From IMG/VR virus record IMGVR_UViG_3300032084_002349, positions 1-64,000 of that record: a stretch of 64,000 nt of DNA; one strand, written 5' to 3'. The notes below the pieces were generated by a model. It did no database searches. It was given only the letters and a program-made list of their open reading frames with translations, and had not been told where the DNA came from. Position numbers and translations under genes: made by a program. Shown here in pieces: positions 1 through 62,360 of the stretch. The DNA comes from a virus. How positions within the stretch are numbered: the first letter of the stretch is position 1; the number at the start of each line of letters is the position of its first letter.

Positions 1-3000
1 TCTCTAATTGTTGCAATTGTTGTTGTAGAATAGCCCTGTCTCGTTCAGCCGAACCCATAAAAAAGCTAAAAAAGCCTGAAAAAAGTCCTGCCAAAGCACT
101 AATACCTACCATTGTAGCGAGTTGGCCTGTTATTGCTTTGAGTGCTGGTGACATTCTACCAAATCCAGCAGTTATTGCTGGACCTAAACGACCCAGATTA
201 GCCACTAGTTTTGCTAATAGAGCAGAAGCAACTCTACCTCCGCCAAAATAACCTTGTATATTTCCACCAACAGAATAACCACGAATACCTCCGCTACCAC
301 CGAAACCAACACTACCACTACCTATTAATCCACCTGTAGCAGCAGATATCGGACCTCCTCTCATAGCTTTAAGAGTATCTGTAGCATCTCTTCTTAAAAC
401 AAAACTGTTTTCTGGTAAAATAGCGCTTTGATTATCTACCTTACCACTACTATTACCCGGAACAATAAAAGAACCACCTGTCTGACCTTTTCGGCTTAAA
501 CTTGAAGAACCACCACGATCAATCTGATTCAATTGTTTCATTTCAGAAAGAGTGCCAGGTAAAGGAGGCGTAAATACAGCTTCTCCAGAAGCTAACCTAA
601 CAGGAACCCCCATACCACTAGACTGACCACCTTTAGCAAAACCACCAGAAGCATAACCTTTAACAATGCCACCGGAAACTTTACCTGGTAGAAGAGCAGA
701 GGCTACTTGTGCTAATTTAACAGCATTAATGACACCAATTAAACTAATCATAGCTGTTGTCATACCACTAATACCAGCACTAAAAGATTTCCACAATCTA
801 TTACCATCAATTGTATCAGTTGCTCTTTGTATAGCAGCATTAAGTTTATTATAATCTTCTGCCGCCTGCTCTTGTAATGCTGCTCTTTCTTCAACAGTTA
901 CAGCAGTATCCAACCTATTAAAAGTTTTGTCCAGCTCTGCCGAAGCTGCTGCGATACCTTTAAAGGCTAATTCTGTCTCTTTTACAATAGAAGCGTCAAT
1001 AAAACCTGTGACAGCTCCAGCAGCTAAGCCAGCAGCACCTCCTACAGCAGCACCTCTTCTACCAAAAGCTTGACCTCCAACTATTCCTGCGCTCATACCT
1101 AAAGAGCCGCCTTTTTGTAAAGCTCCAGTGAAGCCTGCGAATGCTGCGCTTTGGTCACTAACCGTACCAGCTAATTCATCAAAAGCATGACCCAGCTCTG
1201 GCATTTTAGAGCTTAGTAGTGTTGCCCCAGTACCTATTAAGCCAAAAGTACCACCTAATTTATCACCGGCTGTCGTAATCTTTTTAGTCAATTCTGGATA
1301 AGCACTAGATAATTTCTTCATACCTGGAAGATTTTGTAAAGAAACAGCTTCTGAAAAACCATCTAATATAGAACCGACACCAGACTCGATACTCTTTTGT
1401 GCTTTTCTAAGATCATCATCTAAAGCTCCAAACTTCCCGGCTTTTTGAGAACCTGAAGCTTTCATATCAATATCTCGAACTTTCATTCTAGATGTCAAAA
1501 ATCCTAATTTCTTAGCCATCTCTTCTGTAACACCAGATAGTTCATCACCAGCAGTAATTTGTGCGTCTAAAATTTCTTTAAACCCATCAGACATATTTTT
1601 AATTTCATCAAGAGATAGTCCTGCCTTCATACCTTGAACAAGTTCATCTATACCCTGATTCAACAAATCTGGATCAATCTCATCATATCCCGTATAAATT
1701 TTCTTAACTAGATCAGATACTTCTGTTCTAACCATACCCTCTACATCTGCATCTCCAATAGATTGTATATTTTTAACAATAACATCCTTTAGATCTCCTT
1801 GCATACCTGTTTTCTCGGTAGCTCTAGTTTCTGCTCCTTGAAGAATTCTACTTCTAATACTTTTTTCGTATTGTGAAACAGTCATTCCAAGTTTTTTAGC
1901 TACTCTTTCCAGATATTCCATTTTATCTGCTCTAGGACTACCACCACTAGCTAAACGTTGAACAAAACCAACAGGGCCGCCACTAGCATAACCTTGAATC
2001 CTATCTGCTCTATTAAGTTGATCTAATTTTTGAGATCCTAATTTTTTTGCAGACTTTTCATTGATTACATACTCACCAGGAGTTAATAATGCAGGAACCG
2101 TGTCGCTAACAGAGCCTCCTCCAGCTAATTTTGCTCTATAATTATTCACTTGTTTCAGAAAATCTGCAGGACTTTTACCACTACTAAAAACTGTTCTTGT
2201 GGTATCAGCAGGCATGTCCGATGGTAAGCCAAATAAACCAGAAGCAGAACCCAAACCTTGCGCAAAATCTAGTGGATCATTAGACTGATCTTTATCGTAA
2301 GGAGCACCAATACTTGCTACAGCCGCTTCGAGATAAGCTCCTACAGCATTAAAGAAACCTGCTTTTTCCATAGCATCTTTATTCAGATCGCCTGGCGATA
2401 CTGGCTGAGCTTGTACTTTTGTAGCCATCTGATTAGCAACTTTAGCTACCGTGTCTTTGAAATCCTTAAACATAGTATCTTCATAAGGTTTATTATCATC
2501 AGTCTCTCCTAAAGTTCTGCCAATAAGCTTTACCATAGTTCCGTCATCAGCTTCTGCAAACACTTCTTTAGCAGTTCCTCTCAGGCCAACTAGTGCATAA
2601 GGTACTGCTTTATCTTGTGCTGCTTTTAATGCTACTTTTTCTTTTAAGGCTTTAAATGTTTCTTGATTAAGTTTACCTTTACCTTTATAACGATCTATTA
2701 CAGATTGTGCTAGGCTACTCGGCATGTTTTTTAATTGTCCCTTAGGAATTCCTCCTGCGTTTTGACCAGATTCAAATATTTTAATATCGTCTACAGTCAA
2801 AGCTTCAGCTCCACCACCACCGGTAAATCTTTGTACTCTACCTCCACGATTAAGTTTTTTAAGATTATCTGCGCCTATTTTTTCAACAGCTTTTTTACGA
2901 ATAACATATTCACCAGGAGTTAGCATAGCAGATACAGTGTCTCTATTACCACTTCCAGGAACCAAACCACCACTAGCAAAGCCTTGAGTATTAACTCCAG

Positions 3001-4774
3001 ATTGTTTATTATTAATAGCTTCAGACAAAGCATCAATAGACTGAAGTAAGCTAGCCATACTAGTATTTACAGAGCCTAGTGCTGTTGTATTAGCGTTTAA
3101 AGCTGCTGAATTTTTAGCTAAAGCTTTGTTGTTAGAAGCCGAGCCTTTATTCCTACGACCACTACCTCTACCACTAACACTACCGCCAGAAGAAGGACCT
3201 ATTGGACCCATTGGGCCTGATGGACCACCTCCGCCTCCTCCGCCTCCGCCTTTACCTCCAAACCCACCAAGAAAACCACCACCAAATTCACTTAATGCCG
3301 AAACTCCCTTAAAAGCAGCTAAGGCCGTTATCATAGGCAATAAAGGTTTTAATGCTGAAGCCAATGTTATAAATGCATTTGCTGTTGTTAAAGCAACTTT
3401 AGCAATGCCTCTGAAAGTTGTGCTATTACCTATATCTCTAACTAAAGAAACAAAAGACTGTCTGGTTTTTTCAAATTGAACTGCTAAAGATGCTTGAGCT
3501 TGTATAGCCGCTTTAGATAAACTGCCTTGCCCAGATTGAGCTACCCCTAAAGCTTTTTGAGCAGTGGCGAACTGTTGAATTAAAGGAATAACTTTACCAA
3601 TTTGACGGAAACCACCAAGCTCTTCGACAATTTGACCAAAACGCAAATCTCTTGGATCTAAACCTTTAAGACCTTCGCTTAATCGTTTAACAGCTTCAAA
3701 GGGTCCAACAAATTTCCCTTGTAAGTCTGTAAGCGTAATACCAAACTCTTTCAAAGACTCTATAGTAGAACCTCTTTGTATTCTAGTAAAGATAGTTCTT
3801 AAACCAGTAGCAATAGTTTCTGCACTTTCACGAGTAGTCGCTCTAACACTAGTAAACAAAGCTACAAATTCATTAAGAGCAGCCGTACCTTCACTAATAC
3901 CCCTACTAGAAGAAGCAAACACACCACCAGTACGCTGAATAGCAGCAATGATATCGCCAGCTTCAACAGCAAAACTAGCAGCTACAGCATTCACACTACC
4001 AAGAGCAGCTTCTAACTCCCCAGAACTAATACTAAACTGACGCATTAAAGCAATACTACCTTCAACAGTATTATTAAGATTATCAAAAGAAGGAGCTAAT
4101 GCAGATTTGGCTAAGGCTTCTAATGCTATTTTAGTTTCTTGAGCGCTTAAACCAGCTTGAGAAAGTGTAACAGATACTTGAGCTAAATCAGAAGACGCAA
4201 CACCTAAATTGCTAGATAGATTAGAGATTTCTTTTGTAATACCAGAAAGGCCACTAACAGTCGTTCCTGTTACCTGACTTAATCGAACAATTTGTTTATC
4301 AAAAGCTACAAATTCTTTGAAAGCACTATTAATAGCGTTAGTTAAACTATAAACAACACCAGTAACAGCACTAAAAGCAGCGAATCTACGAATAGCTAAG
4401 CCTGATTGTTTTCCAAATTCTTGAACTTGGGTAGTAGCTGAGCTAATAGCACTCCCAGTACTTTGCACTTGTTTTTGCACTTTGTTAAGAGACTGAACGC
4501 CTCCAGAGCCACCTAAATTATTTAAACCGGCCCCTAACTGAGATACTGTAGCACTTAAACTAGCAACACTAGCATTAGCTTTAGCAGCATTTTGCTGTAA
4601 CAACTGTAACTGCTTGTTAACCTTAGTAACATTTTTAGCTGCTGATCCTTTTAAATCAAGATTAACTTTTACTTTAATATTAGATAATTGCTTTCTAATT
4701 TGAGAAGCAATAACCTTAGTATTACTAGGTCCTCTTAAATTAATTTGTGCCGTTAAATTAAAAGCTGCTGCCAT
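1..4774 (-). CDS. tail tape measure protein (C-terminus beyond window)
   Basis: An uninterrupted minus-strand frame runs from the ATG at 4774 to the window edge, about 1,590 codons with no stop. Residues about 165-340 match the TP901-type tape-measure core, including an FTRIQRGS stretch near residue 330. A Gly/Pro-rich linker lies near 505-530. After it come recurring modules of the form RDTVSAMLTPGEYVIRKKA (near 620 and 905), a degenerate copy near 1395 and another near 1460; such LTPGE repeats are common in tape measures. Ala/Gly-rich hydrophobic stretches occur near 1250 and at the C-terminus. The protein should set tail length and act in DNA passage. It follows the tail accessory genes in the leftward operon, as usual. 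The left end is truncated by the window, not by mutation. Confidence 0.9.
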   Translation of the reverse strand, partial: MAAAFNLTAQINLRGPSNTKVIASQIRKQLSNIKVKVNLDLKGSAAKNVTKVNKQLQLLQQNAAKANASVASLSATVSQLGAGLNNLGGSGGVQSLNKVQKQVQSTGSAISSATTQVQEFGKQSGLAIRRFAAFSAVTGVVYSLTNAINSAFKEFVAFDKQIVRLSQVTGTTVSGLSGITKEISNLSSNLGVASSDLAQVSVTLSQAGLSAQETKIALEALAKSALAPSFDNLNNTVEGSIALMRQFSISSGELEAALGSVNAVAASFAVEAGDIIAAIQRTGGVFASSSRGISEGTAALNEFVALFTSVRATTRESAETIATGLRTIFTRIQRGSTIESLKEFGITLTDLQGKFVGPFEAVKRLSEGLKGLDPRDLRFGQIVEELGGFRQIGKVIPLIQQFATAQKALGVAQSGQGSLSKAAIQAQASLAVQFEKTRQSFVSLVRDIGNSTTFRGIAKVALTTANAFITLASALKPLLPMITALAAFKGVSALSEFGGGFLGGFGGKGGGGGGGGGPSGPMGPIGPSSGGSVSGRGSGRRNKGSASNNKALAKNSAALNANTTALGSVNTSMASLLQSIDALSEAINNKQSGVNTQGFASGGLVPGSGNRDTVSAMLTPGEYVIRKKAVEKIGADNLKKLNRGGRVQRFTGGGGAEALTVDDIKIFESGQNAGGIPKGQLKNMPSSLAQSVIDRYKGKGKLNQETFKALKEKVALKAAQDKAVPYALVGLRGTAKEVFAEADDGTMVKLIGRTLGETDDNKPYEDTMFKDFKDTVAKVANQMATKVQAQPVSPGDLNKDAMEKAGFFNAVGAYLEAAVASIGAPYDKDQSNDPLDFAQGLGSASGLFGLPSDMPADTTRTVFSSGKSPADFLKQVNNYRAKLAGGGSVSDTVPALLTPGEYVINEKSAKKLGSQKLDQLNRADRIQGYASGGPVGFVQRLASGGSPRADKMEYLERVAKKLGMTVSQYEKSIRSRILQGAETRATEKTGMQGDLKDVIVKNIQSIGDADVEGMVRTEVSDLVKKIYTGYDEIDPDLLNQGIDELVQGMKAGLSLDEIKNMSDGFKEILDAQITAGDELSGVTEEMAKKLGFLTSRMKVRDIDMKASGSQKAGKFGALDDDLRKAQKSIESGVGSILDGFSEAVSLQNLPGMKKLSSAYPELTKKITTAGDKLGGTFGLIGTGATLLSSKMPELGHAFDELAGTVSDQSAAFAGFTGALQKGGSLGMSAGIVGGQAFGRRGAAVGGAAGLAAGAVTGFIDASIVKETELAFKGIAAASAELDKTFNRLDTAVTVEERAALQEQAAEDYNKLNAAIQRATDTIDGNRLWKSFSAGISGMTTAMISLIGVINAVKLAQVASALLPGKVSGGIVKGYASGGFAKGGQSSGMGVPVRLASGEAVFTPPLPGTLSEMKQLNQIDRGGSSSLSRKGQTGGSFIVPGNSSGKVDNQSAILPENSFVLRRDATDTLKAMRGGPISAATGGLIGSGSVGFGGSGGIRGYSVGGNIQGYFGGGRVASALLAKLVANLGRLGPAITAGFGRMSPALKAITGQLATMVGISALAGLFSGFFSFFMGSAERDRAILQQQLQQLE

Positions 4775-17281: not shown

Positions 17282-19318
17282 CTATTTTTTATAAATTCCA
17301 AGATAAATATCGTCATTACCGCCTTCGGTAAACCATCCGGGCCCTTTATATAAAGTTTTCTCGTCAGATCTATAGACTCCATCAACACCCCCGATAACCT
17401 CGAACTCAACTGGTGTGTCTGCTCTATTAATTGCTCTGGCTACTGAATTAGCCATAATTAAGGAGCTATAACGGTCTTTTCGTAGTTTACCTCGTTTGGC
17501 ATGAACACCTTTAATATCTGGAGTATCCCATCTTTCTCTGGCACCAGGACTATTACTAGTTTGAGACATTACTATGGTAGTTAACTCATTTTTTAATTCT
17601 TCTATTTCTAAAATACATTCACTAAGAGTATCATATATAGGATCAATATCATCTCTTGTAATATCTTGAGATTCTTTTTCCATAGCTAAACCTAAAGTAA
17701 GATTATCGAACTGAGGAAATAATAAAACTTTATCTTCTAAGTCTTTTCTCAAACCATGATTAGCTTGGCTAGTCCAATCTGATCTAGCAAATTGTATTAA
17801 CTGCAAAATATGCAATCCTGATTTAAAATCCGTATCCTTCGATTTTGCTTCAATAATTGGCCATATAGGTAGTTCATTGCTTTGTAATTTATTAGTATCA
17901 TGTAGAGCTTCTTCAATAGCAACACCACCACCCTGAGCATCTAAGGCTATTCTTTCACACGGAAATACTTTCATTAAGTCTCGAATTTTTCTAGAGCAAA
18001 AACCATAAAAATCGTTCTCATTAACTAATCCTGTATTTTGTCTTTTCTTGAAATTTTTTCTATTTGTAGTCCACACATACACAACTCTAGAATGATTTGG
18101 TTGTAATTCTAATACTACTATACTAAAATTATCTTGCTCACTAGCTGGGTCAATACCATATACATATTTTTTATCTGGATCGCCTTTTATTTTAGCGTCG
18201 AAAATAATAGGTTCTTCATTAATCACAACAGGATTTTTATTACCAACAACACAACTCTCAATCAAACTTCTTTTGAAAAAACCACTACTATCTTTAGTAA
18301 AACATGCAGCATATTCCATATTATAAATACCGCTATGTATAGTCGCTTTAGCTCTAGCTACTTGCCTATCATCCATAAAACCTTTAGGTATAAGTTCGTA
18401 TGGCATTCTAACAATACTATAATCTTGCCAGTTAAAGTTTTGTGGCACCTCGCCTTTAAAAATTTCTTGAAGTTTTGATTCTTCTCCTAAACTATGAATA
18501 ATAGATCTATATCGCTCCCAATACTGAGCAAAGTGTTTAAAGCTGTAATCAGCAGTACCTGCTATTATAGCCTGATTACTTTTACGATGTTGTAAAGTTT
18601 CCATTTCTTCATTCCACATACCGAGCTCTTTCATAAGTTCTTTTTTAGCTTCTGCTTTGACGTTACCCATAGGATCTGCAGAAACAGCAGCAAAACCAGA
18701 TACTACCGTTTCATATACATCTGGTGAAATAGATGCAAATTCATCAGCAATAATGATATGAGCTCTTAAACCTCTAATCTTACTACCATCACCCAAAGGA
18801 ATAGCTATTGTCCAGCTATCTCCGTATCTCATAGTACATCTATCAACATCTCTTCTTGGACCATCATCATTACCATTGAAAATACTACGTATAATAGCAG
18901 ATTTTCTCCATATGGTTTCCATATATTCAAAAATAACTTTACTCTGTCTAAAAGCAGCCCCGACGACAACTATTTTACTACCTGGAACAAATATACATTT
19001 TAAAGTACAATAAAGAGCTAATAAAAAAGATTTACCAAAACCACGACTAGCTATAAACATAGGAAATGGCCGATCCCAAAATTCTTGCAAAATAGCTGCT
19101 TGAATCGGATGTAATTCAATATTCATTAACAATTTGGCCGTCATGCTGAAATTGGCTGGATCTTTAATAATATTGATAAGATGTCTGTCAGGATTTTCTA
19201 TTTCTTTTTTAGAACGACGTATCATTAGATTTTTATCAATCTTAATATCGTTAATGTTTCCTAAGTTAAGCCATGCATTGTCTAGGTAGTTATTATTAAT
19301 ATTATCCATGAGATTCAT
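17282..19318 (-). CDS. terL: terminase large subunit
   Basis: 678 aa. Packaging ATPase and nuclease. Walker A is ASRGFGKS at residues 90-97 and Walker B with the catalytic Glu is HIIIADE at 187-193. The RNase H-like nuclease begins at VYGIDPASEQDN, with D390 and D396, and continues with RIALDAQGGG (D460); a further acid lies in the C-terminal third. It overlaps the ERCC4-type nuclease gene by 17 bases and precedes the portal. Length and motif order are normal for a large terminase. Confidence 0.95.
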   Translation of the reverse strand: MNLMDNINNNYLDNAWLNLGNINDIKIDKNLMIRRSKKEIENPDRHLINIIKDPANFSMTAKLLMNIELHPIQAAILQEFWDRPFPMFIASRGFGKSFLLALYCTLKCIFVPGSKIVVVGAAFRQSKVIFEYMETIWRKSAIIRSIFNGNDDGPRRDVDRCTMRYGDSWTIAIPLGDGSKIRGLRAHIIIADEFASISPDVYETVVSGFAAVSADPMGNVKAEAKKELMKELGMWNEEMETLQHRKSNQAIIAGTADYSFKHFAQYWERYRSIIHSLGEESKLQEIFKGEVPQNFNWQDYSIVRMPYELIPKGFMDDRQVARAKATIHSGIYNMEYAACFTKDSSGFFKRSLIESCVVGNKNPVVINEEPIIFDAKIKGDPDKKYVYGIDPASEQDNFSIVVLELQPNHSRVVYVWTTNRKNFKKRQNTGLVNENDFYGFCSRKIRDLMKVFPCERIALDAQGGGVAIEEALHDTNKLQSNELPIWPIIEAKSKDTDFKSGLHILQLIQFARSDWTSQANHGLRKDLEDKVLLFPQFDNLTLGLAMEKESQDITRDDIDPIYDTLSECILEIEELKNELTTIVMSQTSNSPGARERWDTPDIKGVHAKRGKLRKDRYSSLIMANSVARAINRADTPVEFEVIGGVDGVYRSDEKTLYKGPGWFTEGGNDDIYLGIYKK

Positions 19319-51903: not shown

Positions 51904-52746
51904 ATGATTTATATTTATAAAGATAATTTTGCTTCCAGAGGTTTGTTTGCATATTTTTGGACTGTCGTAGATGCTTTTAAATATTTAAAAAATTCAGAAG
52001 ATGCTTTATATATTTCTTTAATTAATACCACGCCTTATTACGACACTAATTATAATAAAACCAACAATGTTTGGGAATATTATTTTCAACAACCTTTTTT
52101 AGATGTAGATATATCTTCCGAGACAACCTCCGATATTATAGTTAATCAAAATTTCGTCAATAACCTAATGTTCACTGTAAAAAATGGTAGATATGTTTTA
52201 GATAAAGATCAAGATGTTATACATTTTGCCAAGACAATAATTGACAAATATATTAAAATCCAGCCTCATATACAACACAAATTAGATATTTTACATCAAA
52301 CATTATTCAGTCAATACAAAGTAATTGGTATACATATTAGAAATGGGGAACATTACGCCAATAATAACAGAGGACATGGTAGACATCAACAATATTTGAT
52401 GGACAACGAATACTATGTTAAAACTATTAAATCTTACATAGACGATTACGATAAAGTTTATGTAATGTCTAATGATAAAGAACCCAGAGATTATATTAGA
52501 AAATATTTCGGTAATAGTATTATATTCTATGATCATCCATATATATCGGATAAAAATAATATTGATACTACTTGGCTTTTTAATAACAATAATTATGATA
52601 AAGGTGAAGCGGCTGTTTTAGAGGCTTTGCTGATGAGTAAATGTCATCATAAATTATTGGTTAATAGTAATTTAGGATTCTTTAGTGCTTTATACTCTAA
52701 TAGTCCTTATACCATGATAGATAAACATATAAGGTATGTAGCATAA
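51904..52746 (+). CDS. fucosyltransferase-like glycosyltransferase
   Basis: 280 aa. VIGIHIRNGEH at residues 140-150 matches the HxRxGD-type GDP-fucose-binding motif of alpha-1,2/1,6 and O-fucosyltransferases, with GEH in place of GD. Downstream YVMSNDKEPRDYI and EAALEALLMSKCHHKLLVNS-like segments follow the family order. It begins at the base after the previous stop and overlaps the SDR gene by one base. Probably transfers a deoxyhexose onto a surface glycan; acceptor unknown. Confidence 0.7.
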   Translation: MIYIYKDNFASRGLFAYFWTVVDAFKYLKNSEDALYISLINTTPYYDTNYNKTNNVWEYYFQQPFLDVDISSETTSDIIVNQNFVNNLMFTVKNGRYVLDKDQDVIHFAKTIIDKYIKIQPHIQHKLDILHQTLFSQYKVIGIHIRNGEHYANNNRGHGRHQQYLMDNEYYVKTIKSYIDDYDKVYVMSNDKEPRDYIRKYFGNSIIFYDHPYISDKNNIDTTWLFNNNNYDKGEAAVLEALLMSKCHHKLLVNSNLGFFSALYSNSPYTMIDKHIRYVA

Positions 52747-53573
52747 TGACAAGTTTAATTATAGGATCATCTGGTCAAATAGGCAACCATCTAACTTCTT
52801 TCTTAAAAAACAAACAAGAAAAAGTTTTAGAATTTGATATTAGTATTACTCACAACCATGATTTACGAATACCAAATAATACAATCTTAGAAGACTACAT
52901 ATGTAAAAGTGATTTTATATATTTTTTAGCGTTTGATGTTGGTGGTTCAAGATATTTAAAAGAATATCAAAATGATCCAAAATTTGTTTCCAATAATATG
53001 AGAATCATAGAAAATACTATGAGTCTTATAGGAAGACATGCGAAACCTTTTATATTTGCTTCCTCTCAAATGTCCAACATGGAACAATCGACCTATGGCG
53101 CATTAAAAAACATAGGGGAAATTTATACAAAATTATTGGGTGGTTTAGTTGTTAAGTTTTGGAATGTTTACGGAATAGAAAAAGATGCAAACAAATTCCA
53201 TGTAATAACAGACTTTATATTAAAAGCAATTAATAATGGCGTTATTGATATGTTAACAGATGGTGAGGAATCTAGGCAGTTTTTACACGCAGATGATTGT
53301 AGTAATTGTTTAAGTATACTGGCTGAACAGTTTCATAGTCTAGACAAGACTAAGCCCTATCATATAACTAGTTTTGAATGGGTGAAAATAATAGATATTG
53401 CTAAACTGATTAGCAATAAAACAAATTGTGATATAGTAAAGGACACGCAAACAGATGAAGTACAATTTAATAAACTAAATCCTCCAGATGAATACATAAT
53501 GAACTTCTGGCATCCTCAAATCACTATAAAAAAAGGTATTGACGACATATTAAAATACTATACGAATAATTAA
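52746..53573 (+). CDS. extended SDR sugar epimerase/dehydratase
   Basis: 275 aa. The NAD(P) loop is GSSGQIG at residues 7-13, the catalytic Ser is in FASSQMS near 106, and Y117xxxK121 is in STYGALK. These are features of NAD-dependent epimerase/dehydratases that make nucleotide sugars. It would supply the donor for the glycosyltransferases upstream. It ends the four-gene cassette, which reads as methylation, two transfers and donor synthesis. Shorter than the usual 310-330 aa. Confidence 0.75.
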   Translation: MTSLIIGSSGQIGNHLTSFLKNKQEKVLEFDISITHNHDLRIPNNTILEDYICKSDFIYFLAFDVGGSRYLKEYQNDPKFVSNNMRIIENTMSLIGRHAKPFIFASSQMSNMEQSTYGALKNIGEIYTKLLGGLVVKFWNVYGIEKDANKFHVITDFILKAINNGVIDMLTDGEESRQFLHADDCSNCLSILAEQFHSLDKTKPYHITSFEWVKIIDIAKLISNKTNCDIVKDTQTDEVQFNKLNPPDEYIMNFWHPQITIKKGIDDILKYYTNN

Positions 53574-53630
53574 ATATAAAGGTGTATACAAACTGTATTA
53601 TTTTTACATTGTAGAACCGGATTATTAATT

Positions 53631-53834
53631 ATGTTACCTAAAACAGTAGATTTCAAAATACAAGAAAATATACATAAGGATATACACTCTATTCAATTTT
53701 ACAGAGTTTATAAAACAGAAGAAGGCGAAGAAAAAACTGGATATATTGACAGTTTCAGTCCGATGAGTAAAATAGAACTTCATGCCTTAAAAAATTTCCT
53801 TCAGGAGTATTTGCATAAAAATGACTGGTATTAA
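53631..53834 (+). CDS. small protein, paralogue of 50354
   Basis: 67 aa (MLPKTVDFKIQENIHKDIHS). C-terminal helix parallels that of 50354-50551. It overlaps the ASCH-like gene by 14 bases. Confidence 0.5.
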   Translation: MLPKTVDFKIQENIHKDIHSIQFYRVYKTEEGEEKTGYIDSFSPMSKIELHALKNFLQEYLHKNDWY

Positions 53835-54195
53835 TATTCAGTGTCCTTGGGCAGAAAATTTAATTATTGGAAATAAATGTGTGGAAACGAGAAGTTACCC
53901 CCTGCCAGAGAAATATGAGGGCGAAGAACTAGCCTTAATAGAAACTCCCGGCAAGACAGGGAATTTCAAGGCTAGGATCATTGGTATAGTTACTTTCTCT
54001 CATAGTTTTCAATATAAAGATGAAAATGAGTGGCGTGATGATTATAACCGTCATCTTGTACCAGATAATGATATGTCGTATAAATGGGACGATAAAAACA
54101 AATATGGGTGGGTTGTTAGTGATGTGGTTAAATTCCCTAAGCCTCAACCAGCACCACAAAACAAAGGAATAATTTTTACAAAGAATTGTCTGTAA
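53821..54195 (+). CDS. ASCH-domain-like protein
   Basis: 124 aa. GINIQCPWAENLIIGNKCVE then TRSYPLPEKYEGEELALIET matches the opening of ASCH domains (the P-W-A-I-G-K-ETRxY pattern), a PUA-like fold linked to RNA or modified-base recognition. In phages such proteins may process or protect nucleic acids; the target here is unknown. It overlaps 53631 by 14 bases. Confidence 0.7.
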   Translation: MTGINIQCPWAENLIIGNKCVETRSYPLPEKYEGEELALIETPGKTGNFKARIIGIVTFSHSFQYKDENEWRDDYNRHLVPDNDMSYKWDDKNKYGWVVSDVVKFPKPQPAPQNKGIIFTKNCL

Positions 54196-54215
54196 TAAAA
54201 ATATAAGGATGTAAT

Positions 54216-54404
54216 ATGTATATTGTTGTTACTAGCAACATGAGTAAATACGCTATTGAATTAAAAAATTTTCGTATTGGTGATAGAGATGATAGAATAT
54301 TCGGGCCTTTTGAAGAAAAATACATGGCAGAAGAATGGGTGGATAATCATTGTGGCAGTAAGTACTGGACAATTATTAAATTAAATGACAAATGCATTAA
54401 CTAG
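54216..54404 (+). CDS. small protein, unknown
   Basis: 62 aa (MYIVVTSNMSKYAIELKNFR), beta then helix. ATAAGGATG upstream. It overlaps the DUF5522-like gene by 20 bases. Confidence 0.5.
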   Translation: MYIVVTSNMSKYAIELKNFRIGDRDDRIFGPFEEKYMAEEWVDNHCGSKYWTIIKLNDKCIN

Positions 54405-54498
54405 AGAATTATTATTATCGAGAAAAGAGTGTTGTGGTAGTGGATGCAGGAATTGTCCATATATACCTAAACATAAGAAAGGTAGTATAAAAACATAG
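54385..54498 (+). CDS. DUF5522-like Cys-rich mini-protein
   Basis: 37 aa. ECCGSGCRNCPYIPKHKKGS is the DUF5522 signature, with four Cys. Such domains occur in bacterial and phage mini-proteins with unknown metal-binding role. The gene precedes the planctomycete cassette by 40 bases. Confidence 0.65.
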   Translation: MTNALTRELLLSRKECCGSGCRNCPYIPKHKKGSIKT

Positions 54499-54538
54499 TA
54501 CGGTGTATTTCAATATACCAATTTAGGAGGTATCACAC

Positions 54539-56911
54539 ATGAGGTCGTCCTGTATTATCTTTGTGTTATTATCTGGATCATTATTTGCCCAAGACAACGG
54601 TATAAAGTTTTTTGAACAAAATATTAAGCCAGTTTTGACCACTCAATGTTATTCTTGTCACTCTTCCAATTCTAAAGATGTAAAGGGTGGATTGTCTGTA
54701 GATACTAGGCAAGGCATATTAAACGGTGGTGATTCTGGCCCATCAGTTGTTCCCGGTAAGATAGATGAGAGTTTGTTATTAGATTATATTGAGTCTGGTG
54801 ATATGCCTCCAGATAATCCTCTCAGCGAAGAAGTTGTCAATAATTTTAGACAATGGATTAAAATGGGTATGCCTGACCCAAGATATAAGCATGAGAATAG
54901 GGCAGTAGAATTAAAGCAGGCTAGAAATTTCTGGGCATTTAAAAAGGTTGCGAGACCTCCTGTAGCCAAATACGATGATGGTACAGAGATAGATGCTATA
55001 TTAAATTTAGAAATAGAAAAGAACAAACTAAAACCAGTAGAGGCAGCAGACGATTATACTATTGTTCGCAGACTTTATTTTGACCTGATTGGTTTGCCAC
55101 CAAGTATTGAACAAATAAAAGGCTATACTGATGATACTTCAGAAGATAAGTATGAAAAGTTAGTTGATAGTTTATTGCAAGATGAGGGGTTTGGAGAGAA
55201 ATGGGGACGACACTGGCTTGATGTGGCAAGGTACGCAGAATCATCTGGGCAAGATAGGAATTTAATTAGTCCTTATGCTTGGAGATATAGAGATTATGTT
55301 ATAGATAGTTTTAATCAAGACAAACCATACGATCAATTTATCAAAGAACAAATCGCTGGTGATCTACTACCACATAAAAGTTATGAAGAATATAACAATA
55401 ACAGGATCGCTACAGGATTTTTAACTATAGGTACTAAAAATATACAGGCACAAACCAAACAGTTTGAGGCAGATCGTAATGACGATCAGATAGATGTAAT
55501 CACTAGGGGTTTTCTAGGTATGACTTTAAGTTGTGCTAGATGCCATGATCATAAGTTTGATCCATTTTCTCAGCAAGACTATTATGGTGTTGCTGGGGTG
55601 TTTAATAATACAGAAAATATGGATGGTTTGTATCGGGGAAATAATAATACTGGATATCTTGGAAACTATGATTATCTTGTGACAAAAGAAACAGAAGATT
55701 TATATAAGAAGAAAAAAATAGAGGAATGGTTTTTATTATGTGATATTAAAAATTTACAGACACAAATAGATTCTATTAAAACATGGAATAAAAGAGCAAC
55801 AGAACAACAATTAGATAAAGAATTAGGAAAAAGAGAAAAACAACTAACAGAAAAGATGAATAAACTAAAAGAGATTACTGGCAAGGAAGAATTTCCTACG
55901 CTAGAATATCTTGAGCCGGTTATGTCTGTTAAAGATAAAGAAAAAATGAGCGAGGTTAAGTTAGCGATCAGAGGAGAGGTAAATAATCTGGGTGATGAAG
56001 TACCTAGAAGATTACCAGAAATATTTAGCGATAGACCTAATCTTAATTTTGATAATACCAGTGGACGATATGAGTTTGCGGAATGGATAACGCATAAAAC
56101 TAATCCATTAACTTATAGGGTTCATGTTAATAGGGTATGGAGACATTTGTTTGGTAAAGGTATACTGGATAGTTTTGATAATTTTGGTATACTTGGTGGA
56201 GAGCCTACTAATCTTAAACTTATGAACTATTTATCCACTAAATTTATTACTGGTAGACTATCAAATAAAAGACTTATAAAAACTATTGTAATGAGCAATG
56301 CTTATAGGCGTAGTAGTAAGTTTGATAAAAATAATTATGAGATTGATCCTGACAATATTTATTTCTGGAGAATGAATGAGAAAAGATTAGAGGCTGAACA
56401 AATTAGGGATTCATTATTATTTGTATCAGGTAAACTAGACGGGTCGCATAAAAATGTAAGTGATTTTCAAACAGGTATAAAAAATCCTAGTAAAGAATTA
56501 AGAAAGTATATTGGAGAAACAAGAGCAAGATCAATTTATATTCCATCGTTAAGAGATAATAAGATTGAGGTGCTGGATATATTTGATAGACCAGATAATA
56601 GTTTGCTTAATGCAGAGAGAAGCGTTACGACAGTTTCTACACAAGCGTTATTTCTAATGAATAATCCTAAGATTATAGCATTGGCACAAGAAGAAGCCAA
56701 AGTATTGATTGAACATAATAAAAAGATGGGTAAAACCATGCCCAGTATATTATATCGCAACAACATAAATAAAATATTTCTAAAGTTTTTAGGTCGTCCA
56801 CCGACAGAGCAAGAGAATAAAAAATCTATAGAGTTTATTAAACAAGATAGCGATCTTGCCAAACTTATTCAAATAATAATCTGTACAGGAGAATTTAGAA
56901 ATATTAAATGA
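54539..56911 (+). CDS. planctomycete cytochrome c / DUF1549 / DUF1553 protein
   Basis: 790 aa. Signal peptide at 1-17 (FVLLSGSLFA then Q). A planctomycete-type cytochrome c domain follows: heme motif CYSCH at 37-41 and GDMPP near 88-92, whose Met could be the second ligand. DUF1549 spans about 135-345 and holds the conserved second CxxCH motif CARCHDHKFDP near 332. A charged linker is next, then DUF1553 from about 505 (FAEWITHKTNPLTYRVHVNR). The whole is shorter than many host versions. In Planctomycetota these proteins pair with DUF1501 proteins; their exact reaction is not established. Here the pair is split by a sulfotransferase gene (4-base overlap). AGGAGG upstream of the ATG. Confidence 0.92.
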   Translation: MRSSCIIFVLLSGSLFAQDNGIKFFEQNIKPVLTTQCYSCHSSNSKDVKGGLSVDTRQGILNGGDSGPSVVPGKIDESLLLDYIESGDMPPDNPLSEEVVNNFRQWIKMGMPDPRYKHENRAVELKQARNFWAFKKVARPPVAKYDDGTEIDAILNLEIEKNKLKPVEAADDYTIVRRLYFDLIGLPPSIEQIKGYTDDTSEDKYEKLVDSLLQDEGFGEKWGRHWLDVARYAESSGQDRNLISPYAWRYRDYVIDSFNQDKPYDQFIKEQIAGDLLPHKSYEEYNNNRIATGFLTIGTKNIQAQTKQFEADRNDDQIDVITRGFLGMTLSCARCHDHKFDPFSQQDYYGVAGVFNNTENMDGLYRGNNNTGYLGNYDYLVTKETEDLYKKKKIEEWFLLCDIKNLQTQIDSIKTWNKRATEQQLDKELGKREKQLTEKMNKLKEITGKEEFPTLEYLEPVMSVKDKEKMSEVKLAIRGEVNNLGDEVPRRLPEIFSDRPNLNFDNTSGRYEFAEWITHKTNPLTYRVHVNRVWRHLFGKGILDSFDNFGILGGEPTNLKLMNYLSTKFITGRLSNKRLIKTIVMSNAYRRSSKFDKNNYEIDPDNIYFWRMNEKRLEAEQIRDSLLFVSGKLDGSHKNVSDFQTGIKNPSKELRKYIGETRARSIYIPSLRDNKIEVLDIFDRPDNSLLNAERSVTTVSTQALFLMNNPKIIALAQEEAKVLIEHNKKMGKTMPSILYRNNINKIFLKFLGRPPTEQENKKSIEFIKQDSDLAKLIQIIICTGEFRNIK

Positions 56912-57531
56912 AGTATATTAAAACAAAATTTATGATAACTTCATCACAAAAAAATAAATATTTGTGGTTCAGGGTTGCGAAAGCAGCAACAACAACGATT
57001 CTTTCCCACTTATGCCAACATACTAAAATAAGTTTTTGTAATAGAATTAATATATATCAGAACGATGAAAATGTTTGGCAGGAATATCTGCTATGGAAAA
57101 ACCGAATGTATTCTGATAATTATTTTAAATTTGCTTTTGTTAGAAACCCTTGGGATAGATTAGTTAGTTGTTATTTTAATAAAATGGAGGATGGTTATGA
57201 GAACTTCAATAAGAATAACTTTAAAACATTTGATAAGTTTATACATTATATAAGAAATGTAAAGACTAAGACATGCGATAGACATTATAGGTTACAAACA
57301 GAATTGTATCCTATTGATCAAATAGATTTTGTAGGTCGTTTTGAAAATTTTGCAAATGATCTTGGTTTTGTGTGTGATGCAATAGGTATGCCCAAACGTA
57401 AGAAATTTAAAACAATGCACAAATCCAAACACAGACCATATCAAGAATATTATAATGAGGAAACTCAACAAATAGTTAAAGACAAATATGAACAAGATAT
57501 AGAATTATTAAACTATAAATTCGGAGAGTAA
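56908..57531 (+). CDS. carbohydrate sulfotransferase
   Basis: 207 aa. RVAKAATTTI at 22-31 is the PAPS 5-prime-phosphosulfate loop, FVRNPWDRLVSCY at 77-89 is the 3-prime-phosphate motif, and the C-terminal YEQDIELLNYKF fits sulfotransferase family 2 (PF03567). It transfers sulfate from PAPS to a sugar hydroxyl. Its start overlaps the stop of the cytochrome-c/DUF1549/DUF1553 gene (ATGA) and it is 2 bases from DUF1501, so the three are one translated unit. No signal peptide, so it is cytoplasmic or acts before export. Confidence 0.85.
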   Translation: MKYIKTKFMITSSQKNKYLWFRVAKAATTTILSHLCQHTKISFCNRINIYQNDENVWQEYLLWKNRMYSDNYFKFAFVRNPWDRLVSCYFNKMEDGYENFNKNNFKTFDKFIHYIRNVKTKTCDRHYRLQTELYPIDQIDFVGRFENFANDLGFVCDAIGMPKRKKFKTMHKSKHRPYQEYYNEETQQIVKDKYEQDIELLNYKFGE

Positions 57532-57533
57532 AT

Positions 57534-58829
57534 ATGTTAAATAGAAGAAGTTTATTACAAGCCAGTAGTTTTGGTTTCGGTATGTTAGCATTAAAAGGAT
57601 TAATGGCAGAAGAGGCTATGAAAAGTAATAAGAGAGTTATATTCATGTATATGAATGGTGGTATGACTCATACTGATACTTTTGATCATAAGCCTTTAAT
57701 GGTAGAAAAAGCAGGTATAGATGATCCTGTAAGTAAAGGTAGAAAGATTATGAAACCGGGAGTGCCTTTAACTCCAGCAGGAGATAGCGGCATAGAAATT
57801 AGCGAGAACTTCCCACACTTGCGTAAACATGCAGATGATTTATGTCTGTTGAATGGTATGAAGAGTAAAACAGGTAATCATAATCAAGCAAGAAGTTTAT
57901 TACATACCGGGAATTTTCAATTCAGTAGACCTAGTATGGGTAGTTGGTTATTGTATGGATTAGGCACAGAGAATAAAGAGTTGCCGGGGTTTATAACTAT
58001 AGATGCTAACATTGGGCCTGATAATTATGGTAGTTCATTCTTACCAGCAGTATATCAAGGCACTGCTATTAATGCTGGTAGTAAAAGTGCTATACCTAAT
58101 CTTGTAAATACATCTACAACTAAAGACAGACAAAGAAAAGATTTAGATTTATTAAGAGACTTTAACCAGATGCACCTAAAAGATGGTGCAGAAAATGGTA
58201 GACTAGAAGGATTGATTGAGAGTTATGAGTTGGCTTTTAGGATGCAGACAAGTGTTCCTAATACTATTGATATATCAAAAGAATCGCAACAAACCTTACA
58301 GAAGTATGGTATCAATGATAAAGCCACTGCTAAATTTGGCAAACAGTGTTTATTAGCAAAGAAATTTAGTGAAGCAGGAGTTAGATTCGTAGAGATTGGT
58401 CATGGTGGATGGGATATGCACCAGAACATTAATGATAATTTAAAAAAGAATACTTCTGCTATTGATAAACCTATCGCTGCTTTGATCCAAGACTTAAAAG
58501 ATTCTGGATTATTTGAAGATACAATTATATTATTTGGAAGTGAGTTTGGCAGAACTCCCGGTATAAAAGAAGGAGCAACAGGTAGAGATCATAATAATAG
58601 TGGATTTTCTATGTGGATGGCAGGTGGTGGTGTTAAAGGTGGTATGAGATATGGTTCTACTGATGATTTTGGGCATAAAGCAGTGGATGGTATGGACATG
58701 CATGATTTACATGCTACTATATTACATCTAATGGGTATTGACCATAGTAAATTAACATATAGATATAGTGGTAGAGACTTTAGACTAACTGATGTATTTG
58801 GTAACATTCAACACGATATTATAGCATAA
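57534..58829 (+). CDS. DUF1501 protein
   Basis: 431 aa. The N-terminus MLNRRSLLQASSFGFGMLAL is a Tat-like signal with a twin Arg. The body shows DUF1501 features (VIFMYMNGGMTHTDTFDHK, then FVEIGHGGWDMHQNI and FGSEFGRTPGIKEG then GRDHNNSGFSMWMAGGG), a member of the alkaline phosphatase/sulfatase superfamily. His and Asp residues in GRDHN and SEFGR mark the metal site. It is the usual genomic partner of cytochrome/DUF1549/DUF1553 proteins. The last base overlaps the ferredoxin start. Confidence 0.92.
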   Translation: MLNRRSLLQASSFGFGMLALKGLMAEEAMKSNKRVIFMYMNGGMTHTDTFDHKPLMVEKAGIDDPVSKGRKIMKPGVPLTPAGDSGIEISENFPHLRKHADDLCLLNGMKSKTGNHNQARSLLHTGNFQFSRPSMGSWLLYGLGTENKELPGFITIDANIGPDNYGSSFLPAVYQGTAINAGSKSAIPNLVNTSTTKDRQRKDLDLLRDFNQMHLKDGAENGRLEGLIESYELAFRMQTSVPNTIDISKESQQTLQKYGINDKATAKFGKQCLLAKKFSEAGVRFVEIGHGGWDMHQNINDNLKKNTSAIDKPIAALIQDLKDSGLFEDTIILFGSEFGRTPGIKEGATGRDHNNSGFSMWMAGGGVKGGMRYGSTDDFGHKAVDGMDMHDLHATILHLMGIDHSKLTYRYSGRDFRLTDVFGNIQHDIIA

Positions 58830-59215
58830 TGGCAAACAAAAAACCAAGAAAAAAGATTCCTAAAGAATTAGCAATAATTCAAGCAGATAATTGTACTGGT
58901 TGTGAGGCTTGTTTAGAAGTATGTCCTGTTGATTGTATATTCCAGATAAAACAGGGAGTAACTCAATGGTGTGAGATTGATTTGTCTACTTGTATAGGTT
59001 GCGAACAATGTATTCATGTTCCCGGCGGTAAAGGTAAGAAATATGATCTTAAAGTCTGTCCTTGGGATGCTATCGAGATGGTTCCTACCGAAGAAATAGC
59101 ACAGGCACAGGCTGATATGGGTGGGCCAAAAGAATATATTGATGCAAATTGGGATAGGCTAGTAGATATTGCACAAAATATAGCAGATTTAAAAGGTAAA
59201 AAAAATGGTGTATAA
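58829..59215 (+). CDS. two-cluster 4Fe-4S ferredoxin-like protein
   Basis: 128 aa. CTGCEACLEVCPVDC (from residue 22) and CIGCEQC (from 55) then CPWDAI (from 77) form two 4Fe-4S sites, the second with an insertion of about 15 residues between its third and fourth Cys. Basic N-terminus, no signal peptide, so cytoplasmic. Overlaps DUF1501 by one base. It could pass electrons to or from an enzyme in the cassette (inference). Confidence 0.85.
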   Translation: MANKKPRKKIPKELAIIQADNCTGCEACLEVCPVDCIFQIKQGVTQWCEIDLSTCIGCEQCIHVPGGKGKKYDLKVCPWDAIEMVPTEEIAQAQADMGGPKEYIDANWDRLVDIAQNIADLKGKKNGV

Positions 59216-59238
59216 CCATTTCTAATAAAGGAGATATT

Positions 59239-59685
59239 ATGAGAACTAACAAATTTCTAGAGGCGTTAAAAACAGTAGCAGATAAACCTGGGCCAAAAGA
59301 CCCACGAAGAACTCCTGCTCCTAAAAAAGATCAGAAAAAAGGTAGTAAGAAAAATAAACCTGATAGTGCCAAAGACGACAAAAGCAAGATTACGTTTAGT
59401 AAAAAGACTATAGATAAATTAAAGAATAAAGTTAGTGAACATAATGAAAAAATTAAAAAGAAGGGTAAAGGGAGTAAGGCTACATTAGGTATGTTAAAAG
59501 CAGTATACAGAAGAGGCGCTGGAGCGTATTCAACTTCTCACGCCCCTAAAATGAGTAGAGATGGTTGGGCTATGGCAAGAGTAAATGCTTTTCTTACAAT
59601 ACTCAGAACGGGAAGGCCATCAAATTCTGGCTATAAGCAAGACAATGACTTACTACCAAAAGGACATCCACGAAGCACCAAATAA
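59239..59685 (+). CDS. basic phage protein with GAYSTSHAPKMSRDGWA motif
   Basis: 148 aa. Lys-rich, Pro-rich first half, then a compact C-terminal part: RRGAGAYSTSHAPKMSRDGW, ARVNAFL and DNDLLPKGHPRST. This C-terminal pattern is known from DUF5824-like phage proteins of unknown role. AAGGAGA upstream. Overlaps the next gene by 41 bases in another frame. Confidence 0.65.
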   Translation: MRTNKFLEALKTVADKPGPKDPRRTPAPKKDQKKGSKKNKPDSAKDDKSKITFSKKTIDKLKNKVSEHNEKIKKKGKGSKATLGMLKAVYRRGAGAYSTSHAPKMSRDGWAMARVNAFLTILRTGRPSNSGYKQDNDLLPKGHPRSTK

Positions 59686-60379
59686 AACTTCTGTGGATAA
59701 AATATTTTTAATAAACCATCCTAAACTTATTGATAGGTTATATTTTCAAAAAAAACAATTTGAGAAATTTAAATTAAAATATCAAATTATTAATTCTATA
59801 AAATGTAATCATTTTACAAACTTTTATAATACGAATATCAAATCTTTATTTTTAACTCATTTAGAGATTCTTAAAAGTATTACAGATATAGATGAACTGT
59901 GCTTAATTTTAGAAGACGATGCCGAAATTTATGATATTGACGAAGTAAATAAGTATATAGATTATATACTGAAAAACAATTTGTCTCTGAATTGGGATAT
60001 GATATATTTTGATAAGCCTGTTTATTTTAATAAAGAAAGCCAAAATGCAAAATTAATCTCCGAAACTAAATTAGTTGATAATTATATTTATAAACCGGAG
60101 TGGCAATTACAAACACATGCATATATTATGAATCCAAAAATTATTAAAGATGTGGTTCAAACGCTAATAGACCATATAAATAATATGGAGAGTGGTGCGA
60201 TCAAAAAAGATCAAGGTCTTAAAAGACTAAGCCATATAGACCAAGTATATAAATATTACATTCATCCGAGACTAAATATATATACGCCTATAACCGACTT
60301 AATTGGTCAATGTGAAAATTTTGAGTCAACTTTAAATTATAAAAAAAATTCAAGTTGCCAGTTGACAAAAGACGAATAG
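59645..60379 (+). CDS. GT25-like glycosyltransferase
   Basis: 244 aa from the ATG at 59645 (MTYYQKDIHEAPNK). KIFLINHPKLIDRLYFQKKQ then SLFLTHLEILKSI and LILEDDAEI match the glycosyltransferase family 25 (LPS/collagen-type) order, with EDD as the nucleotide-sugar motif. It probably adds a hexose to a surface glycan or protein. It is distant from the 50.5-53.6 kb cassette but may share its purpose. It overlaps 59239-59685 by 41 bases. Confidence 0.8.
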   Translation: MTYYQKDIHEAPNKTSVDKIFLINHPKLIDRLYFQKKQFEKFKLKYQIINSIKCNHFTNFYNTNIKSLFLTHLEILKSITDIDELCLILEDDAEIYDIDEVNKYIDYILKNNLSLNWDMIYFDKPVYFNKESQNAKLISETKLVDNYIYKPEWQLQTHAYIMNPKIIKDVVQTLIDHINNMESGAIKKDQGLKRLSHIDQVYKYYIHPRLNIYTPITDLIGQCENFESTLNYKKNSSCQLTKDE

Positions 60380-60390
60380 AGTTATATAAT
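60362..60390 (+). promoter_or_regulatory. consensus sigma70-type promoter
   Basis: TTGACA, 17 bp, TATAAT, a perfect match. CGAATA lies in the spacer. Its start would be near 60397, inside the 28-aa ORF, so it mainly serves the glycosylase at 60456. Confidence 0.85.
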
Positions 60391-60475
60391 GGACAATATC
60401 ACTATTTTGTTGTTGTTTACTTTGGTCTATCTACTACTTTGGATAACGGATTTTAATGATGGAAACTTTGATTGA
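60389..60475 (+). CDS. possible membrane peptide
   Basis: 28 aa, one hydrophobic segment (ITILLLFTLVYLLLWIT). The ATG overlaps the -10 of the promoter at 60362, so it could only be made from upstream transcripts. Weak candidate. Confidence 0.3.
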   Translation: MDNITILLLFTLVYLLLWITDFNDGNFD

Positions 60476-61037
60476 TCCTAAAGATATTACTAACTACAAT
60501 CGTACCGATTCAGAATTGCAATCTTTCTGGATATTCTGCATCCTCGTTGCCGGTAAGAATAGCGACACAACTGCTAGATTAGTTACTAAACTACTCAAAG
60601 ACAGAGGAGATATGACTCCATTTGAGTTTATTAAAAGCCTCAAGTTATCAGAACTTCATAATTATTTGAAGGCACATAAGACAGGACAGTATGATAGGAT
60701 ACGCAAGGCTTTATATTTCTCATCTAAATTAAACTTGAGAACTTGCACAAGAGAAGACTTGATGGATGTTTATGGTGTTGGGCCAAAGACTGCCAGATTC
60801 TTTTTGCTTCATACTAGAGAATTTTGTGATGAAGTTGTATTAGATACTCATATACTTAGGTGGATGAGAGAAAGGTGTGATGTTAAAGAAGCACCAAAGA
60901 ATACTCCACAAAATCCAGAAAAATACGCTCAGTACGCAGGATTGTGCAAATATCTAATGGAGCAACATTATACAGGCTTGACATTGGCTCAAGCAGACCT
61001 TATGATATGGACAGACATGAGTGGGAGATTAGATTGA
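60456..61037 (+). CDS. HhH-GPD DNA glycosylase-like protein
   Basis: 193 aa. The helix-hairpin-helix is VYGVGPKTARFFLL at about 105-118 with K111 at the lyase-Lys position, and D130 in VVLDTHILRW is the catalytic Asp. These fit endonuclease III-type base-excision enzymes. No 4Fe-4S loop follows, and the N-terminal lobe is short. It may remove damaged or modified bases from phage or host DNA. Driven by the promoter at 60362. A start 3 bases later is equally possible. Confidence 0.8.
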   Translation: MMETLIDPKDITNYNRTDSELQSFWIFCILVAGKNSDTTARLVTKLLKDRGDMTPFEFIKSLKLSELHNYLKAHKTGQYDRIRKALYFSSKLNLRTCTREDLMDVYGVGPKTARFFLLHTREFCDEVVLDTHILRWMRERCDVKEAPKNTPQNPEKYAQYAGLCKYLMEQHYTGLTLAQADLMIWTDMSGRLD

Positions 61038-61324
61038 ATCATAAAGAATACAAAGAAGAAACTAGACAAAGGTATGGAGAACCTATAGAATATGTTTTGT
61101 CTCGTTTAAAACAAGGTAAAGAAATTGATTTGTTTGATATCATAAATGCAAAATGTGAATTAAAAGAATTAATAAAAAAAAGTAACAATAATCCACAAGA
61201 TATAAAACACACAATAAATAGAAGTACAATGATGATTTTAACGCCAATTTATAAATGGATTTTATGGTTAGTAATAACAATGTTGATAGGTATAATTTTC
61301 TATACATTTAGATCCAAATTTTAA
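61007..61324 (+). CDS. small C-terminally anchored membrane protein
   Basis: 105 aa from the ATG at 61007 (MDRHEWEIRLNHKEYKEETR), a 31-base overlap with the glycosylase in another frame. Charged cytoplasmic part and a C-terminal membrane segment (ILWLVITMLIGIIFYTF). Role unknown. Confidence 0.5.
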   Translation: MDRHEWEIRLNHKEYKEETRQRYGEPIEYVLSRLKQGKEIDLFDIINAKCELKELIKKSNNNPQDIKHTINRSTMMILTPIYKWILWLVITMLIGIIFYTFRSKF

Positions 61325-61389
61325 AACAATTAATTTTGTGAATCACAATACGTTTTGTGATTATTTTACTTTTAATTTCAGGAGGAAAT

Positions 61390-61710: not shown

Positions 61711-61716
61711 TTTTAT

Positions 61717-61742: not shown

Positions 61743-61766
61743 TTTCATTTCATGGAGGAAATAATT

Positions 61767-62351: not shown

Positions 62352-62360
62352 GGAATAATT

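Follow-up and report, generated by a model that had tools for sequence, protein, structure and literature searches.

A PSCyt-DUF1501 gene pair of Planctomycetota and Verrucomicrobiota type carried as recurrent, selected cargo by tailed phages

The window analyzed here is a stretch of 64,000 nucleotides, bases 1-64000 of the 117,168-base IMG/VR record IMGVR_UViG_3300032084_002349 (locus label G000). It contains a cassette of four genes, which encode a PSCyt1-PSCyt2(DUF1549)-PSD1(DUF1553) protein (hereafter PSCyt), a sulfotransferase, a DUF1501 protein and a ferredoxin (Table 1). We found that this is real, recurrent and selected phage cargo from a major unexplained gene family of the Planctomycetes-Verrucomicrobia-Chlamydiae (PVC) bacteria. 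Through Pfam, the first gene matched PSCyt1 (PF07635, E 2e-13, 51.1 bits against a curated cut-off of 22), PSCyt2/DUF1549 (PF07583, E 2.4e-81, 273.1 against 29.8) and PSD1/DUF1553 (PF07587, E 1.4e-71, 241.2 against 28.5), and all three cut-offs were exceeded. The second gene matched Sulfotransfer_2 (PF03567, E 1.7e-21, 77.9 bits against 22) and the third matched DUF1501 (PF07394, E 1.1e-133, 446.6 bits against 27); no PHROGs family was found for the window PSCyt or DUF1501. An earlier note, made from the sequence alone, had described four genes with these domains at these positions and had allowed that domain searches might miss DUF1549, DUF1553 and DUF1501, all of which were detected. Its overlaps of 1-4 bases were confirmed for the first junction (4 bases) and the third (1 base); the sulfotransferase and DUF1501 genes are separated by a 2-base gap (57532-57533).

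Table 1. Positions of the cassette genes and of other genes in the window
Gene	Position	Strand	Basis and remarks
PSCyt1-PSCyt2(DUF1549)-PSD1(DUF1553) protein, 790 aa	54539..56911	+	Pfam; Sec-type signal peptide by eye; two CxxCH haem-attachment motifs (C37-H41 and C332-H336)
Sulfotransfer_2 family sulfotransferase, 207 aa	56908..57531	+	Pfam; PHROG 3347
DUF1501 protein, 431 aa	57534..58829	+	Pfam; Tat-like (twin-arginine translocation) NRRSLL signal, N terminus MLNRRSLL; predicted alkaline-phosphatase-superfamily fold
Two-cluster 4Fe-4S ferredoxin, 128 aa	58829..59215	+	Fer4 families (Pfam); no signal peptide seen by eye
Terminase large subunit	17282..19318	-	Marks contig as viral
Tail tape-measure protein	2..4774	-	Open at window edge; marks contig as viral
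Flanking gene, 124 aa	53821..54195	+	Also 5' of the cassette in several related contigs; no Pfam family; ASCH label is a guess
DUF5824 gene	59239..59685	+	Borders the cassette in many related contigs
Ogg/HhH DNA-glycosylase-like gene	60456..61037	+	Right flank in many related contigs

By its gene content the contig is a tailed phage, with a terminase (about 25% identical to its best isolate-phage matches), a tape-measure gene and a clamp loader gene that lies farther along the record. The GC skew and the coding strand both switch near 29 kb. The minus side carries the structural genes, terminase and tape measure, and the plus side carries the cassette, tRNAs, the DNA-glycosylase-like gene and the clamp loader.

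To compare related contigs, the window proteins were searched with tblastn against IMG/VR loci that had been fetched. DUF1501 of the window type was found in 18 contigs at 79-100% identity; five of them start at or inside DUF1501, which left 13 informative for the upstream gene. PSCyt stood directly 5' of DUF1501 in all 13, which do not represent 13 independent lineages because some are near copies of one another (L013/L016, L002/L003). In nine of the 13 the PSCyt frame enters the start of DUF1501 by 8 coding bases, or 11 including the stop (sequence seen for L003), and the partners are therefore likely translated together. Protein identity to the window in other contigs with this PSCyt-DUF1501 order was 72-99%, and phage flanks are shared with them. 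A ferredoxin match followed DUF1501 on its 3' side in 13 of the 18 window-type contigs. Split frames, as from sequencing errors or real decay, occur in some cassette genes of L015 and L019.

The sulfotransferase behaved differently from its neighbours. It was found between the partners in only one of the 13 informative contigs (3300031972_002446), whose genes are 100% identical to those of the window, and the window junctions around it look like a clean insertion. Because the partners mostly overlap elsewhere, we consider it a recent guest that gives no clue to the substrate; it looks like a recent neighbour of the pair. A single-protein viral scan, which reaches close relatives only, found the twin contig alone. 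INPHARED gave two partial matches near 33%, and L015 contains a 29% similar gene elsewhere, outside the PSCyt-DUF1501 partners. The earlier note had taken the sulfotransferase as a module member and a hint to substrate chemistry, which we rejected since it is missing between the partners in 12 of the 13 contigs. Of the gene order that it expected in other viral contigs, PSCyt-DUF1501-ferredoxin was found again and the four-gene order was limited to the twin. The gene product matches the phage sulfotransferases of PHROG 3347 (galactose-3-O-sulfotransferase), from which it differs by its place inside the pair, seen only in the window phage and its twin.

A Pfam scan of 20 picked proteins from this record and one host stretch revealed a set of glycan genes beyond the window (L218-L220, G000:64001-117168): NeuB, a cytidylyltransferase (CTP_transf_3), UDP-galactopyranose mutase (GLF), the glycosyltransferases GT11 and GT25, and at least three further sulfotransferases (two Sulfotransfer_2 and one Stf0). 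The cassette sulfotransferase therefore fits this glycan set better than the pair. The N-terminal part of a transketolase was found in the same region.

Selection was estimated as pairwise ratios of nonsynonymous to synonymous substitution (dN/dS, omega) between the window genes and their window-type relatives. For DUF1501 omega was 0.036-0.111, with one pair saturated; PSCyt gave 0.069-0.110, ferredoxin 0.055-0.127 and one flanking gene 0.055-0.081. Against the more distant L033, L038 and L168 it was 0.14-0.36, with high dS. The cassette genes are thus under strong purifying selection among window-type phages. Both CxxCH motifs were present in all 11 phage PSCyt rows including the window; of the 23 phage DUF1501 rows, 22 have the twin-arginine (RR) motif and one has KR. 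The statement of the earlier note that intact motifs are held by selection agrees with the conserved CxxCH pair and with omega of 0.04-0.13. The window DUF1501 retains 95 of 102 residues invariant in 36 bacterial rows, and the window PSCyt retains 144 of 161 invariant in 13 bacterial rows, so the family match is not due to chance.

Among the best 80 bacterial loci, DUF1501 was at most 54% identical to that of the window and came, to judge by record titles, nearly always from Planctomycetota or Verrucomicrobiota, and PSCyt was at most 43% identical in its best segment. PSCyt lay 5' of DUF1501 on the same strand in 73 of the 80, which supports the pair as the usual PVC arrangement; no sulfotransferase or ferredoxin match was found in these loci. 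The phage and bacterial pairs are alike in domains, order, both haem motifs and the RR signal. The phage version differs in being phage-encoded, in its compressed junctions, in the ferredoxin appended in one lineage, and in forming long-stemmed clades of its own. Reference types of the bacterial proteins are described in the available text of two papers, on the domains of Rhodopirellula baltica RB10051 (PMC2754498) and on PSCyt genes (PMC5615132). With the terminase and tape measure on the contig, these relatives and the trees below agree with the earlier note that the cassette is phage cargo of PVC, most likely planctomycete, origin.

The first DUF1501 tree was built from alignment A4, of 59 rows (36 of the 80 bacterial loci and 23 phage rows), which leaves out L054 (stop codon) together with L055, L060, L062, L114 and L119 (five not individually checked). 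The second tree used A4 minus 17 long or redundant rows (4 phage, 13 bacterial) plus 20 bacterial rows, which added bacterial relatives of two other DUF1501 types. Alignment A5 (PSCyt) has 13 bacterial and 11 phage rows, and alignment A3 leaves out L019 (stop codon) and L015. Window-type and L033-type DUF1501 formed one clade both in the first tree (11 phage rows, support 100/100, stem 0.56) and in the second (9 rows, 100/100). PSCyt of the 11 phage rows also formed one clade in a quick tree (SH-aLRT 100), and these clades suggest one old joint capture of the pair in this lineage.

The first tree, in which bacterial relatives of the other types were absent, showed two phage/bacterial label changes, at least one of them forced, and was compatible with a single origin of phage DUF1501. 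In the second tree a single clade of its 19 phage rows was rejected (approximately unbiased test, p-AU 1.5e-46), and the starred branches force at least four label changes. DUF1501 of the L168/L020 type was sister (100/97) to a gene of genome G019 (which contains L046, Blastopirellula sp. NORP48), with 64% identity. As far as branching order tells, DUF1501 was recruited by phages more than once. The number of captures is approximate, because gains and losses are indistinguishable from label counts and long branches are present in both trees.

Other phage types of DUF1501 were found in an IMG/VR profile scan, which gave 34 loci. L033, L038, L168 and L169 contain DUF1501 at 60-62% identity with PSCyt 5' of it and no ferredoxin match; in L168 there are three DUF1501 genes, along with a gene for an exported-looking thioredoxin. 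The contigs L171-L179, L181, L183 and L184, up to 236 kb in length, contain DUF1501 genes at 37-42%, sometimes in tandem. Only L178 among them matched the window PSCyt in tblastn, and its partner is a PSCyt2/PSD1 protein without PSCyt1. In L182, L020 and L021 the identity of DUF1501 was 27-30%. To judge from tandem DUF1501 genes and from phages lacking a PSCyt match, the core protein would be DUF1501, with PSCyt as its partner. INPHARED gave no tblastn match for PSCyt or three DUF1501 types.

The viral-record searches for terminase, PSCyt2 and DUF1559 covered G000 and 27 of the 37 other DUF1501-bearing viral contigs. PSCyt2 was detected in 15 of these 28 records, 14 of them over the cut-off, two of which were short weak pieces; among 14 control genomes one also gave a match, though under the cut-off. 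Terminase family phrog_2 matched 17 of the 28, only eight below E 1e-20, and also 11 of the 14 cellular control genomes; the viral label of many distant contigs thus rests on IMG/VR.

Two features of this wider set were observed in passing. L168:2433-11230 is a run of three different DUF1501 genes, a PSCyt/PSD1 gene, a gene for a 624-aa protein without Pfam family and the thioredoxin gene; we might guess that the thioredoxin serves haem-cysteine reduction. Membrane-anchored-looking proteins of about 625 aa stand beside DUF1501 at L168:3680-5554 and L020:8031-9914, the latter with a sub-threshold VWA match and the former with none.

The structure model of DUF1501 had a mean predicted local distance difference test score (pLDDT) of 88.3 and a predicted template modelling score (pTM) of 0.88. 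Foldseek matched it to sulfatases at E about 2e-7. VIA-align matched it to NPP/ENPP phosphodiesterases, PafA and choline sulfatase with Z of 18-20 (up to 20.1), a root-mean-square deviation of 3.0-4.2, 237-281 aligned residues and 11-16% identity. The fold of DUF1501 is thus predicted to be that of the alkaline phosphatase superfamily (NPP/ENPP, PafA, sulfatases). On our reading of the motifs, the canonical nucleophile and the first metal Asp are not evident, and the protein may differ from the superfamily in these. Eight polar residues (D51, H116, D294, H296, E337, R340, R351 and H353) were invariant in all 59 rows of alignment A4. The PSCyt model was weaker (mean pLDDT 76.3), and its fold search gave no trustworthy match (Foldseek best E 0.55; VIA-align best Z 6.2, to a phycobilisome linker, below the trust level). 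The C-terminal part of PSD1, residues 618-790, showed weak likeness to phycobilisome linker domains (Z about 6), and one host PSD1 protein had a sub-threshold PBS_linker match.

As for the host, 39 of the 80 bacterial loci, which hold near relatives of DUF1501, led to 38 genomes in which ferredoxin orthologues were sought. Full-length orthologues at E below 1e-45 were found in nine of the 38, and matches at E 0.001 or better in 15. Among 294 sampled Planctomycetota, three had orthologues at E below 1e-45, one being G019, the centre of the sample, and ten at 1e-20. None of 240 Verrucomicrobiota gave one, in a search that scored top candidates only and had no positive control. Identity to the orthologues in ten Planctomycetota loci was 54-65%.

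Beyond the window the phage also contains a DUF1559/SBP_bac_10 pseudopilin gene (G000:84400-85407, L219:400-1407; E 6.5e-39), whose product has a prepilin-type N terminus with a methylation motif. DUF1559 was found in eight of the 28 viral records, all of them among the 12 of the window type; the 16 other records and the 14 control genomes gave no match. According to the available text of PMC10632474, DUF1559 seems confined to Planctomycetes, and Planctopirus limnophila has 68 paralogues of it. From the ferredoxin orthologues, DUF1559 and the ancestry of DUF1501 and PSCyt, a planctomycete, perhaps of Pirellulales, is the best inference for the host.

We tentatively favour the reading that planctomycete phages have more than once taken up an exported redox/hydrolase module of their hosts, of which the pair is a copy and which most likely alters glycans of the host surface or periplasm. 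PSCyt/PSD1 would probably be exported by Sec and loaded with two c-type haems, and DUF1501 would probably fold with its metal in the cytoplasm before export by Tat, so that both may work as a pair outside the cytoplasmic membrane. The likeliest chemistry of DUF1501, given the predicted fold, would be hydrolysis of phosphate or sulfate esters, or else group transfer of a closely related kind, with a glycan or lipid of the envelope or the extracellular space as substrate. The haem protein may perform a redox step coupled to this reaction, and the ferredoxin, where present, would be a cytosolic electron carrier from the same operon. The pair would most likely be made during infection, ahead of the virion genes. 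The altered glycans could mask a receptor, or the pair could serve the set of sugar-nucleotide, glycosyltransferase and sulfotransferase genes. Glycan remodelling is favoured because the phage has this set and the DUF1559 gene.

Several observations weigh against parts of this reading. No direct link between the cassette and glycans was seen, and no activity for any DUF1501 or PSCyt protein was found in the literature. The DUF1501 chemistry may differ from that of the superfamily, because T113, which by motif alone resembles the position of the catalytic Thr/Ser nucleophile, is variable in the 59 rows and the Foldseek TM-scores of the sulfatase match are low (0.27-0.43). In a Pfam scan of 89 flanking proteins from 14 bacterial loci, sulfatase was the commonest family yet occurred only four times. 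Several phages contain DUF1501 with no adjacent PSCyt match, so the redox partner is not always needed. The ferredoxin link to the pair is uncertain, because no ferredoxin match was seen in five of the 18 window-type contigs (L006, L008, L010, L011 and L017) and the host ferredoxins lie apart: the ten host loci had no adjacent PSCyt or DUF1501 match. Ten proteins scanned from six or more of these loci gave no partner in common either. Finally, DUF1501 of Verrucomicrobiota was nearly as close as that of Planctomycetota among the best 80, and the host therefore cannot be told from the pair by itself.

The main rival to glycan remodelling, which we regard as unlikely though serious, is a nutritional auxiliary metabolic module: the pair would draw on periplasmic (sulfated) polysaccharides or organic esters as a source of carbon, sulfate or phosphate and sustain the infected host, the ferredoxin and haem protein handling electrons. 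The predicted grouping of the DUF1501 fold with sulfatases and phosphodiesterases suits this, as does the location of PSCyt genes near sulfatases, some with carbohydrate-binding modules, reported for Verrucomicrobia in the available text of PMC5615132; in the L177 phage some 2 kb separate the DUF1501 gene from one for ribonucleotide reductase. Against it, no gene for uptake or catabolism could be recognised in the neighbours scanned. Some planctomycete genomes have up to 115 DUF1501 candidate stretches (a first look, few scored), so that an extra copy would contribute little if it acted on no new substrate.

A bolder form of the glycan reading takes the several captures (at least the four forced label changes) of exported DUF1501 by large planctomycete phages, some with PSCyt/PSD1 and the window lineage adding ferredoxin and DUF1559, as an envelope-recoding kit, in which secreted enzymes and cytosolic sugar, glycosyl- and sulfo-transferases would together rewrite the host surface. 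In its entirety this seems to us unlikely; if true, the large unexplained PVC gene families would be represented in phages by minimal copies that function.

It is rather more doubtful that the exported pair acts in superinfection exclusion or receptor masking, altering a receptor glycan or protein so that adsorption of sister phages is blocked. Different phages recruited different DUF1501 paralogues, the RR motif is retained in nearly all of the phage rows, and the phage also has a surface-type DUF1559 pseudopilin; however, no receptor is known, and the two or three DUF1501 genes of some phages seem to be more than simple exclusion would call for.

An aid to lysis or egress, with the proteins loosening the envelope late in infection, is quite improbable. 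Planctomycetes have a complex envelope and the proteins look exported, but the cassette shares the plus-strand half with non-structural genes such as that of the clamp loader, apart from the minus-strand terminase and tape measure, and no lysis gene was recognised among the scanned neighbours, where no search was aimed at lysis genes. Exit through the cell wall, one of the roles offered by the earlier note, is therefore weakly supported.

A chimera of host and phage DNA, host contamination, or non-functional passenger genes are very unlikely indeed, for the cassette recurs with the same order and flanks in other IMG/VR contigs, GC is 0.31-0.38 in window-type phage loci against 0.47-0.72 in the best 80 bacterial loci, and omega is low, even though the twin contig, possibly from a related sample, is no independent witness.

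Host-derived genes under selection in a true phage genome, which define phage auxiliary metabolic or host-takeover cargo, were thus found here. Host genes carried by a phage are of a known kind. The planctomycete Phage-ZRK32 likewise contains host-like metabolic genes (PMC10945688); its 21.9 kb genome differs in having amidoligase, glutamine amidotransferase and the like, and the term DUF is absent from the main text of that paper. We found no literature on DUF1501 or PSCyt families as phage cargo, in a search with subscription papers and preprints mostly outside its scope. One phage paper gives, in its available text, a weak DUF1501 match for a 61-aa protein (PMC5418858).

DUF1501 and PSCyt/PSD1 genes are expanded in planctomycete and verrucomicrobial genomes, where paralogy hampers host genetics. 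The available text of PMC2754498 counts 41 PSD1 and 41 PSC2 domains in R. baltica, and that of PMC5615132 gives the functions of PSCyt genes as unknown. Heterologous expression or phage genetics could reveal what these proteins do, since the phage maintains, to its own advantage, one or a few copies and a partner tightly linked to them. Through the cassette, a family that ranks among the most expanded and least understood of planctomycetes becomes available in a small, testable version. The cargo known from phages is extended by an exported module with haem motifs, and large phages without classification become easier to assign to Planctomycetota hosts.

Around the cassette, an Rfam search of 50000-64000 gave no match, and a promoter scan of 53500-61500 gave 59 sites against 43.1 (standard deviation 6.5) in shuffles, from which no interpretation was drawn. 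Two small Cys-rich proteins with signal-like N termini (61357-61710 and 61752-62111) are kept near the cassette in several related phages. The second of them was considered as a planctomycetal host marker, which was not borne out (0 of 199 sampled Planctomycetota); one of 194 Verrucomicrobiota matched it at E 8.9e-5 and 27% identity. Elsewhere in the phage, L218:5315-6091 encodes a phage trypsin-like protease with a signal-like N terminus, and 22104-22742 a possible phage sigma factor (PHROG 1740, E 1.1e-5).

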